A stretch of DNA of 63,488 nt, taken from contig NZ_ATUT01000012.1 of assembly GCF_000420345.1 (NCBI RefSeq), forward strand, positions 1-63,488, read 5' to 3'. The notes beneath the pieces are model-generated. The model saw nothing but the letters and a program-made list of their open reading frames with translations, ran no database searches and was not told the origin of the DNA. This DNA comes from Faecalicoccus pleomorphus DSM 20574 (lineage in GTDB: Bacteria > Bacillota_I > Bacilli_A > Erysipelotrichales > Erysipelotrichaceae). Positions 46,341 through 54,389 of this stretch are shown in pieces (the first letter of the stretch is position 1; every line of letters starts with the position of its first letter). A program made the position numbers and the translations under genes.

Positions 46341-47030
46341 ATGGATTCATCAAAATTGACAAAAGAATCATTGGCAAAGTTATTTGATCATACGTTTTTA
46401 AAAGCGTATGCCACCAGCGATGATTTAAAATCGCTTTGCGAGCAGGCCAAAACTATGAATACGGCTATGGTTGCGATCAACACGGCATGGACAGCTTTCT
46501 GTAAAAAGGAGTTGGAAGGAACCGATGTGCATGTAGGAGCCGCTATCGGATTTCCGCTAGGACAATGCGGATTGGAAACAAAGCTGTTCGAGTGCAACTA
46601 TGCGATTGAACAAGGCGCTGACGAAATCGATTACGTGATTGATGTAGGACAGGCTAAAATGCATAACTGGGCGTATATTCGGGAAGAAATGGAAAAAATG
46701 ACGGCAATTTGTAAAGAAAAAAACATATTGATCAAAGTCATTTTTGAAAACTGTTATTTAGAGAAAGAAGAGATTCAGAAGTTAAGCGAGATTGCCAAAG
46801 AAGTAAAACCAGATTTCATTAAGACAAGTACAGGATTTGGTACAGGCGGTGCTACGGTAGAAGATGTAAAACTGATGAAGGATACAGTACAAGATGCGGT
46901 GCAGGTTAAGGCTGCCGGTGGAATTCGTGACTGGAAGACGTGTAAGGCTATGATTGATGCCGGCGCTACGCGTATCGGAACCAGTTCCAGTATTCAGATC
47001 TTAAAAGAATTTGAGGAGGCCACAAAATGA
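46341..47030 (+). CDS. deoC: Deoxyribose-phosphate aldolase
   Basis: This 229-residue aldolase splits 2-deoxyribose-5-phosphate into glyceraldehyde-3-phosphate and acetaldehyde. The Schiff-base Lys is in PDFIKTSTGFGTGGAT, with supporting LFDHTFLKAYAT, GAAIGFPLGQ, DEIDYVIDVG and KAAGGIRDWKT. GGAGGATC precedes the ATG. It leads an operon with a sugar-nucleotide-like dehydrogenase and RpiA, and a divergent GntR repressor controls it. A second deoC lies at 53661-54389. Confidence 0.93.
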   Translation: MDSSKLTKESLAKLFDHTFLKAYATSDDLKSLCEQAKTMNTAMVAINTAWTAFCKKELEGTDVHVGAAIGFPLGQCGLETKLFECNYAIEQGADEIDYVIDVGQAKMHNWAYIREEMEKMTAICKEKNILIKVIFENCYLEKEEIQKLSEIAKEVKPDFIKTSTGFGTGGATVEDVKLMKDTVQDAVQVKAAGGIRDWKTCKAMIDAGATRIGTSSSIQILKEFEEATK

Positions 47031-50543: not shown

Positions 50544-51077
50544 ATGACAATTAAAGAAATAACCTATGGTGGCTTATCGATTGCTCTATTATCCATTTGT
50601 TCCTGGATCTCTATTCCGTTAGCTGTTCCTTTTACGATGCAGTCCTTTGCGGTATTCTTCCTATGTTTTTTGTGGGGTGGCAAAAGAGGTTCCATTTACG
50701 TCTTTGTTTATATTTTGTGTGGTTTATTAGGAATGCCGGTGTTTTCTGGATTTCAAGGCGGAGTACACGTGATTTTTGGATTAACGGGCGGCTATATTGT
50801 CGGCTTTCTTTTGAGTGCTCTTCTTTTATGGGGAACACAACGGGTATGGAGTCCTTGTAAGAAGATCAGCCTTTTATTTGCTTTGATGGGTCTAGTCATT
50901 TGTTATGGATTTGGGACAACCTGGTTTTTGCTTGTCAGTCAGCAACAAGACTCGATTTTGACAATCGGCAGTGTTTTGATGACCTGTGTGGTTCCTTTTA
51001 TTCTTCCGGATTGTATTAAACTTTTTCTGGCTTATCGATTGGCCGGTCGTCTACGATTCTATATTTCAGCATTATAG
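50544..51077 (+). CDS. bioY: BioY-family biotin transporter substrate-binding subunit (second copy)
   Basis: This 177-residue membrane protein has the BioY pattern: GLSIALLSICSWISIPLAVPFTMQSFAVFFLCFLWGGKRG, YILCGLLGMPVFSGFQGGVHVIFGLTGGYIVGFL and CVVPFILPDCIKLFLAYRL. It is a paralogue of the BioY at 41018-41566 and has its own promoter. Two independently regulated BioY proteins suggest two affinity classes or that one imports another vitamin. Confidence 0.88.
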   Translation: MTIKEITYGGLSIALLSICSWISIPLAVPFTMQSFAVFFLCFLWGGKRGSIYVFVYILCGLLGMPVFSGFQGGVHVIFGLTGGYIVGFLLSALLLWGTQRVWSPCKKISLLFALMGLVICYGFGTTWFLLVSQQQDSILTIGSVLMTCVVPFILPDCIKLFLAYRLAGRLRFYISAL

Positions 51078-51078
51078 A

Positions 51079-51107
51079 TTGTATCTACGGCTTACTTGTG
51101 CTATATT
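51079..51107 (+). promoter_or_regulatory. Promoter of the ABC-F leader
   Basis: TTGTAT (51079-51084) and TATATT (51102-51107) with a 17-base spacer and a TGC just before the -10 box. Transcription would start near 51114, just upstream of a short leader open frame. Confidence 0.7.
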
Positions 51108-51122
51108 GTATCCGGTGATAGC

Positions 51123-51158
51123 ATGAAGATGATCAGACAAGAGGATACTTTACGATAA
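51123..51158 (+). CDS. Leader peptide of the ABC-F gene (candidate)
   Basis: ATG at 51123 opens an 11-codon frame, MKMIRQEDTLR, ending in TAA. GGTGATA lies just before it at a usable Shine-Dalgarno distance. It lies between the promoter and a terminator that precedes an Lsa-like ribosome-protection gene, the typical place for a regulatory leader peptide on which drug-bound ribosomes stall. No similarity to a known leader is claimed. Confidence 0.45.
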   Translation: MKMIRQEDTLR

Positions 51159-51168
51159 ACAAACAAAA

Positions 51169-51282
51169 ACAGAACCGTTTTTTGTGATGGAAGTGTGTAT
51201 TTTTAGTCTGATAGTCAATGCATAAACCAATTGAAAACAAAATTTATAAAAACATTCGGTACTGTTTCAGTGCCGTTTTTTT
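51169..51282 (+). promoter_or_regulatory. Attenuator: antiterminator and terminator before the ABC-F gene
   Basis: The terminator is CGGTACTG (51257-51264) paired with CAGTGCCG (51268-51275), followed by seven T ending six bases before the Shine-Dalgarno. Upstream, ACAGAACCG (51169-51177) matches the left arm of the terminator with one mismatch and could form the antiterminator. The segment CAGAACCGTTTTTTGTG upstream is a near copy of CAGTGCCGTTTTTTTGTG at the terminator. Confidence 0.6.
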
Positions 51283-51303
51283 GTGCAAAGGAGGAATGTT
51301 AGT

Positions 51304-52764
51304 ATGTCTATGATTCAGGTAGAACATTTAAGCTTTTCGTATGACAGTCAACAGGAAATGTTGTTTGATGATGTCAGTTTTTCTATAGATACCGATTGGA
51401 AGTTAGGACTAGTGGGAAGAAATGGACGCGGTAAAACAACATTTCTATCGTTGTTGATGAAAAAATATCCGTACCAAGGAAAGATTCGTTCTTCTGTATC
51501 TTTTGATTATTTCCCTTTTGTCGTGGCAGATCAAGAACAATGGACCATCGATGTCGTGCGATCTATCTATCCGCTTGTCGAAGATTGGCAAATACAAAGA
51601 GAGCTTTCTTATCTGCAGGTAGAAGATGACGTTTTGTGGAGAGAGTTTTCAACATTATCCCAAGGAGAGCAGACGAAAGTCTTATTGGCGGTCTTGTTTT
51701 TGAAACCTGGAAATTTTTTATTGATCGATGAACCCACCAATCATTTAGATGCCAAAGCCAGAGTCGTATTGATGCATTATCTGCAAAGAAAAAAAGGATT
51801 TATTTTAGTATCGCATGATCGAAAGGTCTTAGATGGCTGCGTCGATCATATTCTTGCGATCAATCGTCAGACGATTGAAGTACAGGCCGGAAATTATTCA
51901 TCCTGGTTTGACCGATTTGAAACACAACAGGAAAAAGAGCTTCAGGAAGATAAGCGATTGCGTAAAGATATTCGTCGATTAAAATCTTCTGCTTTACGAA
52001 CTTCGATGTGGTCGGATAAAATCGAAGCATCCAAGATTGGTGCTGCGGACAAAGGGTTTGTCGGTCATAAATCGGCGAAGATGATGCAAAGAAGTAAAAA
52101 TATCGCAAAGCGTCAACAGGCAGCCATTGAACAAAAAGAAGATCTTTTAAAAAATGTAGAGGAAATGGAAAGCCTACAGATGAAACCTTTAAATCATCCT
52201 GCTTCAGTTCTGATATCGTTGGACGAAGTAACTCCACTTTATGATGGCAAAGTCATCGGAAAGCCACAAAGCTTTTTGATTGAAAAAGGACAGCGTATAT
52301 TTTTGGATGGGAAAAACGGATGCGGAAAGAGCAGTTTACTCAAACTATTGGTGGATCCAAAAAGAGAGCATCGTGGCAAGATTCAATGGGCATCGAATTT
52401 GATTGTATCTTATGTATCGCAGGATGCATCTTTTTTACAGGGAACATTGAGTCAATATGCGAAGCAGTATGAAATTGATAAAACTTTGTATCGAACCTTA
52501 TTAAGGAAAATGGGATTTGAGCGTTGGCAGTTTGATCAAGAGATTCAATCGTATTCCGATGGGCAGAAGAAAAAAGTCATGCTCGCAAGAAGCCTTTGTG
52601 AAAAAGCGCATCTCTATATATGGGATGAACCCTTAAACTTTATTGATATTTATACACGTATGCAGATTGAAAAAATGATCTTGTCCAGTCAGGCAACAAT
52701 TTTGATCGTTGAACACGATATAGCGTTTCGTGAAAATGTAGCAACAAAAGTCGTAGTTCTTTGA
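51304..52764 (+). CDS. ABC-F ATPase of the Lsa/CplR-type ribosome-protection group
   Basis: This 486-residue twin-ATPase protein has no membrane domain. ATPase 1 has GRNGRGKTTFLSLL and LLIDEPTNHLDAKAR; ATPase 2 has GKNGCGKSSLLKLL and a degenerate YSDGQKKKVMLARSL signature with IWDEPLNFID. The interdomain linker WSDKIEASKIGAADKGFVG and KSAKMMQRSKNIAKRQQ is highly typical of Lsa/CplR proteins, which displace lincosamides, streptogramin A and pleuromutilins from the ribosome. Length and start (AAGGAGGA before 51304) fit. The drug class is inferred from family. Its leader carries an attenuator. Confidence 0.87.
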   Translation: MSMIQVEHLSFSYDSQQEMLFDDVSFSIDTDWKLGLVGRNGRGKTTFLSLLMKKYPYQGKIRSSVSFDYFPFVVADQEQWTIDVVRSIYPLVEDWQIQRELSYLQVEDDVLWREFSTLSQGEQTKVLLAVLFLKPGNFLLIDEPTNHLDAKARVVLMHYLQRKKGFILVSHDRKVLDGCVDHILAINRQTIEVQAGNYSSWFDRFETQQEKELQEDKRLRKDIRRLKSSALRTSMWSDKIEASKIGAADKGFVGHKSAKMMQRSKNIAKRQQAAIEQKEDLLKNVEEMESLQMKPLNHPASVLISLDEVTPLYDGKVIGKPQSFLIEKGQRIFLDGKNGCGKSSLLKLLVDPKREHRGKIQWASNLIVSYVSQDASFLQGTLSQYAKQYEIDKTLYRTLLRKMGFERWQFDQEIQSYSDGQKKKVMLARSLCEKAHLYIWDEPLNFIDIYTRMQIEKMILSSQATILIVEHDIAFRENVATKVVVL

Positions 52765-52795: not shown

Positions 52796-53554
52796 ATGCT
52801 AGCAAGTGAACGCTTTGAAAAGATCGTGGAGATCGTAAATCAAAAAGGTTTTATCAGTACGAAAGAATTATCCGTTACGATGCAGGTGACGGAAACTACG
52901 ATTCGGCGAGATTGTGAAGAACTGGAAAAACAAGGGCTGTTGTTAAGAGTGCATGGCGGGGCCAAAAGTGTTCATCCGAAAGTGATCTTATCGACAAAAG
53001 ATGAAAAAACAATGAAAGAGAGAAAAGAGTTCTTTTATGAAAAAGATATCGTATGTAAAAAAGCCGCAACTTTTGTCAAAGATGGCGATTGTATCTTTTT
53101 GGATGGGGGAACGAGCATCGTACCAATCCTTCCGTATATTCAAGAGAAGAAAATTAAGATCGTAACTCATTCTCATTTGATCGTGGATGCGTTTTCTGGG
53201 ACAGAATCGGAATTGTTTGTGGTCGGAGGACGCTATATTCCTGAATATGCCATGAGTGTGGGGCCCATTACGATCAGTGAACTGGATCGATTTAATTTTG
53301 ATTTGGCTTTTTTGAGTTGTGCGGGTATTGATTTGGATCGTAAGCTGGTTTATACAGCAGAGATGGATACGATGGCTGTAAAACAAAAGGCCATGTCTTT
53401 ATCGGCCCAAAAGTATTTATTGATCGATCGTTCGAAAATTGCCATTAAAGGTTTTTGCAGCTTTATTGATAGTGATGATTTTGATGCGATCATTTGTGAT
53501 CAGAGCAAGGAACTGGATATGGAAACCTTACCGGAAAATTACATTTTGGTATAA
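52796..53554 (+). CDS. DeoR-family transcriptional regulator
   Basis: This 252-residue regulator has an N-terminal HTH (ISTKELSVTMQVTETTIRRDCEELEKQGLLLRVHGGAKS) and the DeoR sensor domain with FLDGGTSIVPILPYI, ELFVVGGRYIPEYAMSVGP and LAFLSCAGIDLDR. It lies directly upstream of the second deoC and is likely its repressor, sensing a phosphosugar such as deoxyribose-5-phosphate. The spacer between the genes has several AACAAAAACGAA-like repeats that could be its operator. CAGGTGG precedes the ATG. Confidence 0.9.
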   Translation: MLASERFEKIVEIVNQKGFISTKELSVTMQVTETTIRRDCEELEKQGLLLRVHGGAKSVHPKVILSTKDEKTMKERKEFFYEKDIVCKKAATFVKDGDCIFLDGGTSIVPILPYIQEKKIKIVTHSHLIVDAFSGTESELFVVGGRYIPEYAMSVGPITISELDRFNFDLAFLSCAGIDLDRKLVYTAEMDTMAVKQKAMSLSAQKYLLIDRSKIAIKGFCSFIDSDDFDAIICDQSKELDMETLPENYILV

Positions 53555-53634: not shown

Positions 53635-53663
53635 AGGAGGAAAGCATTCTTTTTGAATGCATG
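53635..53663 (+). promoter_or_regulatory. Ribosome site separated from the start by a hairpin
   Basis: The Shine-Dalgarno AGGAGG (53635-53640) is 20 bases from the ATG at 53661, too far for normal use. The gap holds GCATTC-TTTTT-GAATGC (53644-53660), a perfect 6-base hairpin directly abutting the start codon. Folding would bring the two elements close. An in-frame ATT at 53646 is a rare-codon alternative. Confidence 0.5.
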
Positions 53664-54389
53664 AAACGTATGAAACATCCAAATAAAAAAGCAAGTGAAA
53701 TGAGTTTAAAGGAATTGGCTTCCTACATCGATTATTCAGTTTTAAAGCCTGAATTTACGGAAGATCAGATTGTCGAATTGACAAAGGATGGTGTTGAGCT
53801 GGGCTGTGCCACAATCTGTATCAATCCAGGGTACATGGAACTTTGTAAGCCCTATGTAGAAGGGTCTGAAACAAAACTTTGTCCGGTCTGTGACTTCCCG
53901 TTTGGGACAAGTTCGACAGAGTCTAAGGTGGCACAGGCTAAGATCTTGGTGGATCATTATGCCGATGTGATTGGAGAACTGGATGTTGTGGCAAACTTTG
54001 GCTGGATTCGCAGTGGAAAATATGATGCGGTGACTCAAGATATTAAAGCGGTCGTTGATGTATGCCATGAAAAGGACATTCCGGTGAAGGTGATTTTCGA
54101 AACGGATGCCTTAAATGAAGAGCAGGTGCGTAAGGCTTGTCATTGTGCCATGGATGCCCATGCGGATTTTGTCAAAACAAGTACAGGCTTCCTGACTGGC
54201 TTTGAAGCACATGGTGCCACTCCGGAAATTATAAAAATCATGCAGGAAGAGGTACAGGATGTATGCAAAGTCAAAGGAAGCGGCTGCATTCGTACCAGAG
54301 AACACTTTTTACAATTGATCGATATGGGTATTGATCGTATGGGTGTCGGCTATAAATCGGTACCGGTCGTTCTGGATTTAAAACGTTAA
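53661..54389 (+). CDS. Deoxyribose-phosphate aldolase family protein (second copy)
   Basis: This 242-residue aldolase has IDYSVLKPEFTEDQI, ATICINPGYMELC, DFPFGTSS and the Schiff-base segment HADFVKTSTGFLTGFEAHGA. It differs from the first DeoC, with an extra N-terminal 15 residues and changes around GSGCIRTREHF. It may favour another 2-deoxy or related sugar phosphate. It is controlled by the adjacent DeoR regulator and closed by a strong terminator. Confidence 0.88.
   Translation: MKRMKHPNKKASEMSLKELASYIDYSVLKPEFTEDQIVELTKDGVELGCATICINPGYMELCKPYVEGSETKLCPVCDFPFGTSSTESKVAQAKILVDHYADVIGELDVVANFGWIRSGKYDAVTQDIKAVVDVCHEKDIPVKVIFETDALNEEQVRKACHCAMDAHADFVKTSTGFLTGFEAHGATPEIIKIMQEEVQDVCKVKGSGCIRTREHFLQLIDMGIDRMGVGYKSVPVVLDLKR

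Follow-up and report, generated by a model that had tools for sequence, protein, structure and literature searches.

What controls the Lsa-like ABC-F gene that lies in the window, the 63,488-nucleotide stretch of Faecalicoccus pleomorphus DSM 20574 analysed here (contig NZ_ATUT01000012.1), is the question raised by this locus. The gene (51304-52764, plus strand) encodes a ribosome-protection protein of 486 amino acids, and the drugs that Lsa proteins are known to counter are lincosamides, streptogramin A, and pleuromutilins (PMC10201436). The protein passes the general NCBIfam model for ribosome-protection ABC-F proteins (NF000355; 451.6 bits, cutoff 380), and its best-scoring model is that of the Lsa family (NF000167, ABCF_Lsa_all); however, its 685.1 bits fall under the curated cutoff of 750, and its relatives in the genus score 643-651 bits. 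The best solved relative is Lsa(A) (PDB 7nhk), with which residues 1-486 align end to end (1-496, E = 3e-124), inter-domain region included, although the inter-domain loop is approx. 9 residues shorter than in Lsa(A). Because the Lsa cutoff is missed while the general model is passed and homology to Lsa(A) extends over the whole length, the protein is termed Lsa-like; the preliminary description had called the gene Lsa-type. In a quick tree of 84 relatives with long branches outside the genus group, the sequences of the genus cluster together (four members, 100% SH-aLRT) amid others from Erysipelotrichaceae and Clostridia. The surroundings of the ABC-F gene contain two deoxyribose-phosphate-aldolase-like genes and one for a DeoR-type regulator (46341-47030, 52796-53554, and 53661-54389).

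The leader of the gene is located on the plus strand and begins with a candidate promoter (51079-51107), which consists of a -35-like TTGTAT (51079-51084), a 17-nt spacer, and an extended -10 element, TGcTATATT (51099-51107). In the latter, TATATT (51102-51107) is preceded by TGc and followed, after six bases, by GGTGAT (51114-51119), the Shine-Dalgarno (SD) sequence of a short upstream open reading frame (uORF), which is identical in four genomes of the genus. The extended -10 is kept as GTGYTATAnT in all four members, each time 6 nt before the SD sequence. The promoter, described as good at first sight, rests on this -10 element; its -35 element is weak (3/6), and the -35/-10 pair was not picked up by a 9-of-12 consensus scan. 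Transcription is predicted to start near 51113-51115, at the SD sequence of the leader frame. The uORF itself (51123-51158) comprises 11 codons and a TAA stop codon at 51156-51158 (ATG AAG ATG ATC AGA CAA GAG GAT ACT TTA CGA TAA) and encodes MKMIRQEDTLR. Further downstream, an intrinsic terminator (51257-51282) is formed by an 8-bp stem, CGGTACTG/CAGTGCCG (hairpin 51257-51275, -10.2 kcal/mol), and a run of seven T residues (51276-51282); it is the sole terminator found in the 3 kb scanned. The SD sequence of the ABC-F gene, AAAGGAGG (51287-51294), follows, its AGGAGG (51289-51294) being placed six bases after the terminator.

Between the uORF and the terminator lies an antiterminator (AT) element, AAACAGAACCGTTTTTT (51167-51183), that mimics the terminator right arm together with its U-run. 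In particular, 51170-51183 directly repeats 51268-51281 with 86% identity over 14 nt, and an inverted repeat (51167-51188 and 51246-51267) takes in the element. Its partner, delimited from the repeats and from folding, is a stretch at 51250-51267 that comprises an A-run, the terminator left arm (51257-51264), and the loop. The TTTTTT in the T-run at 51178-51183 also fits the NusG pause motif of vmlR (TTNTTT); this run is not kept in every genus member. The preliminary description had noted the 11-codon frame, the terminator with its six-base distance to the ribosome site, and an element further upstream that matches the terminator left arm and copies its right half, all of which are present in the sequence. 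It had taken these elements for a complete attenuation leader, yet it missed the anti-antiterminator (AAT), a helix whose 5' arm is formed by the leader frame itself.

The AAT helix joins a 5' arm at 51121-51148 to a 3' arm at 51197-51221, both of which are placed by the minimum free energy fold, duplex statistics, and covariation; its core pairs AUCAGAC (51132-51138, codons 4-6) with GUCUGAU (51206-51212), and its loop holds the AT element. In the second helix, AAACAG-A-ACCG (51167-51177) pairs with CGGU-A-CUGUUU (51257-51267), and in the window this duplex is lengthened by pairing of the U-run with the A-run ahead of the terminator. The fold of the 187-nt leader has a z-score of -2.55. Relative to dinucleotide-shuffled spacers, the AAT pairing has p = 0.004 in the window and p = 0.003-0.026 in each of the four genomes, with a Fisher value of 7.5e-6 that combines four partly related genomes, two of them close. 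The AT duplex (-11.2 kcal/mol) has p = 0.011 in the window and is weak in each of the other three genomes taken singly (p = 0.08-0.15); it occupies a near-constant leader position (52-56) in the four genomes, and its Fisher value, which combines the same related set, is p = 0.005.

The promoter, ribosome site, peptide start, AAT, AT, and terminator are common to the window and to three further genomes of the genus (4/4), with a protein identity of 60-64%. The leader peptides are MKMIRQEDTLR in the window, MKLLRQIVNIEYFRIQ in genome G003, MKMLKQRGTKE in G002, and MKMFKQRGAKE in G001. All four members thus keep MK[ML]x[RK]Q in codons 1-6, whereas the C-terminus and the position of the stop codon vary; the absence of a conserved frame, which was to speak against the leader, is therefore not what is observed. 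A terminator with TACTGT in its left arm or loop is likewise present in all four. Moreover, both mutually exclusive helices carry compensatory changes, as the preliminary description had proposed to look for in relatives: the AAT core AUCAGAC/GUCUGAU of the window is replaced by CUUCGAC/GUCGGAG, CUCAAAC/GUUUGAG, and UUCAAAC/GUUUGAG in the other genomes. In an alignment of four genomes with helix registers chosen by eye, 97% of AAT cells are paired and three pairs are changed on both sides, and 86% of AT cells are paired and two pairs are changed on both sides; among 500 shuffles a single one attains the covariation score, which none of the six registers tried by sliding does.

The switch was modelled with partition-function folds in which the RNA beneath a ribosome positioned at codon 1, 3, or 6 was masked and pseudoknots were excluded. 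In transcripts that end at the terminator loop, the free RNA of the four genomes forms the AAT (0.96-1.00) and no AT (0.00), whereas a ribosome at any of these codons reduces the AAT to 0 and raises the AT to 0.75-1.00 in all four. The ribosome-dependent capture of the terminator left arm exceeds that of spacer shuffles, with p = 0.007, 0.043, 0.037, and 0.003. When transcripts are extended base by base, the AT lasts until the final one or two bases of the terminator right arm in three of the four genomes; in G003, its main partner is the terminator loop, and it disappears at an earlier point. At equilibrium, the complete terminator is favoured even when a ribosome occupies the frame (0.85-1.00), and the switch can therefore work only kinetically. 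The expectation that a stalled ribosome favours the antiterminator is in this way reproduced in silico: when codons 1-6 are occupied by a ribosome, the AAT is lost and the AT can form while the terminator is still incomplete. A ribosome at the last codon gives no consistent outcome across the four genomes, and the C-terminus and stop are variable; on these grounds, the model points to a stall at codons 1-6 and not at the peptide end.

Genus-wide conservation of the leader, covariation in two exclusive helices, and the modelled switch support the reading that a ribosome-sensing transcription attenuator controls the Lsa-like ABC-F gene, to which we assign a probability of about 85%. Transcription would begin at the SD sequence of the leader frame. 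When no drug is present, ribosomes would clear the frame, its codons would pair with 51197-51221, the AAT loop would sequester the AT element, and RNA polymerase would halt at the terminator (51257-51282). If a ribosome stalls on the first codons, it would instead cover the AAT 5' arm, so that the freed AT element could pair with the emerging terminator left arm and polymerase could read through into the ABC-F gene. Given the gene family and its own anatomy, the leader is probably drug-inducible; the best prediction for the stalling drug is a lincosamide, pleuromutilin, or streptogramin A acting at the start codon. In the leaders of tiaA and are5sc, these three classes have been shown to arrest ribosomes on the start codon of the uORF (PMC12421871).

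The preliminary description stated that such an arrangement is known for other ABC-F genes, and it does match the vmlR (PMC9226507) and cplR (PMC10201436) attenuators. In vmlR of Bacillus subtilis, which encodes an ARE2 ABC-F protein, the AAT/AT/terminator logic has been demonstrated: as in the window, the uORF lies inside the AAT and is followed by an AT and an intrinsic terminator, and a stalled ribosome, as is proposed here, prevents the anti-antiterminator and favours read-through (PMC9226507). However, the vmlR uORF has only three codons (MIN), and the system includes a NusG pause and an SD-hiding hairpin, neither of which is established for the window leader (PMC9226507). In Clostridioides difficile, cplR shares with the model for the window the uORF-dependent attenuation of an ABC-F gene for lincosamide, pleuromutilin, and streptogramin A resistance, and its uORF-stall logic has been tested by mutation; in contrast, its uORF is MRI, and its terminator stem also hides the SD sequence of the gene, which is unsupported for the window leader (PMC10201436).

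Part of the evidence could also be read in other ways. The hairpin might be the terminator of the upstream gene and the short frame a chance occurrence, since bioY (50544-51077), the gene upstream of the leader in the window, ends on the same strand 180 bp before the hairpin. However, the promoter lies after bioY, and the hairpin is located directly ahead of the ABC-F ribosome site. Moreover, in the comparison of the window with G002 and G001 (the G003 contig ends too soon), the latter two carry upstream a gene for a 423-aa protein ending in NAYARSDA (loci L003 and L004), unrelated to bioY, while the frame, its SD sequence, and the two covarying helices are kept. The leader therefore goes with the ABC-F gene, and we regard a bioY terminator as very unlikely. 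Hardly more probable is translational attenuation, in which the leader would mainly hide the SD sequence of the ABC-F gene until a stalled ribosome frees it. Such a mechanism would agree with the joint transcriptional and translational layers of cplR and vmlR (PMC10201436, PMC9226507), and in the window leader folded without the coding sequence, AACAUU, which precedes the terminator, is able to pair with the AAUGUU that follows the SD sequence. Once the first part of the coding sequence is added, however, the SD sequence of the window leader is as accessible in one state as in the other (0.61 versus 0.63), and accessibility does not clearly rise in the other three genomes (0.60 to 0.24, 0.55 to 0.53, and 0.51 to 0.57).

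Among the alternatives, the least improbable, though still unlikely, concerns the signal: instead of peptidyl-transferase drugs that stall ribosomes at the start codon, the peptide itself could cause sequence-specific arrest and thereby sense macrolides or phenicols. The conservation of MK[ML]x[RK]Q at the peptide level is compatible with this proposal, as is K-Q-R, a +X+ pattern, in two orthologues. The window and G003 peptides, however, lack +X+, the C-terminus and stop vary, and RNA pairing also constrains codons 4-6, which explains part of the peptide conservation; in addition, the protein is Lsa-like, and the Lsa spectrum comprises lincosamides, streptogramin A, and pleuromutilins (PMC10201436). 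Finally, a leader that binds a protein or metabolite, e.g., one similar to the L20 leader, in place of sensing ribosomes is the most remote of these proposals: the Rfam L20_leader model gives a weak match (21.5 bits), but this is far below its cutoff of 58.7, and the conserved block consists of the SD sequence and the frame start. No Rfam family reaches its gathering score in the leader, and relaxed thresholds yielded chance-level matches only.

The attenuator proposed here is a new, genus-specific version of a known kind. When the SD sequence and codons 1-6 were sought with two mismatches in 272 genomes of the family, no copy linked to an Lsa-like gene was found beyond the genus; a search of 395 genomes of the class with one mismatch gave a single further match, L134, which this linkage result leaves out. 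The motif MK[ML]x[RK]Q was not found in the open-access literature searched, in which peptide strings were not looked up one by one, and published consensuses for ABC-F uORFs are MIN, MK[L/Q], and MR[I/M], with MAGN for LsaA (PMC10201436). The Lsa(A) leader precedes the same class of gene; however, its peptide and helices differ, and its uORF is far shorter (4 codons versus 11-16; PMC10201436).

Roughly half of the relatives carry another type of leader. A uORF composed of M, 2-4 residues, Cys, and 0-2 residues, together with a ribosome site, precedes 47 of the 84 Lsa-like loci with enough upstream sequence to be classified (the pattern is permissive, and chance probably accounts for a few of these matches), but none of the four genes of the window genus. 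Among the loci near the window clade, the Cys-ending frames are MYNFLCK, MYNFSC, and MINFSCK. As in the window, a strand located downstream, before the terminator, can serve as pairing partner of the uORF codons in these leaders; unlike those of the window genus, their frames, whose common form is M-x-x-x-[S/T]-C(-K/R), have 6-7 codons versus 11-16, with other peptides and other helix sequences. Judged by sequence, the window genus appears to have replaced the Cys-ending leader while keeping its layout, with uORF codons as the AAT 5' arm followed by a terminator. A more specific scenario is tentative, and we hold it slightly less probable than its opposite: one genus would have swapped the common Cys-ending Lsa leader for an unrelated, longer one and rebuilt the three-way switch with new helices and with an AT strand that lies in the AAT loop and mimics the right arm of the terminator together with its U-run. 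The leader would also have gained a new peptide start for stalling, MK[ML]x[RK]Q, by which the range of inducing drugs may be tuned. These findings describe a comparatively supported leader, probably drug-inducible, for an Lsa-like resistance gene from a lineage of the Erysipelotrichaceae; they also suggest that such leaders turn over fast while the switch logic is rebuilt. Moreover, the contrast with the Cys-ending leaders of close relatives provides a natural test of whether the uORF peptide sets the inducing drugs, a question left open by the studies of cplR and vmlR (PMC10201436, PMC9226507).

The Cys-ending leaders match no Rfam family and are unlike the MAGN consensus published for LsaA. 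In some of them, the terminator arm repeats the uORF tail, but this is not general (median match 6 versus a shuffled mean of 5.4); an automatic switch test misplaced several of their terminators and was not relied on. Frames of the form M-x-x-x-[S/T/F]-C(-K/R) are located approx. 160-270 nt before the ABC-F start at L031, L035, L053, L055, L095, L099, L107, and other loci. Loci with such a frame occur in both Clostridia and Erysipelotrichaceae; the tail of the frame, often TTTCTTGC, pairs with a downstream GCAAGAAA. At L107, ATGAAGATGT of the leader frame MKMFSC, which lies approx. 160 nt before the ABC-F start, recurs exactly in the last 110 nt before the gene, possibly as a result of local duplication.
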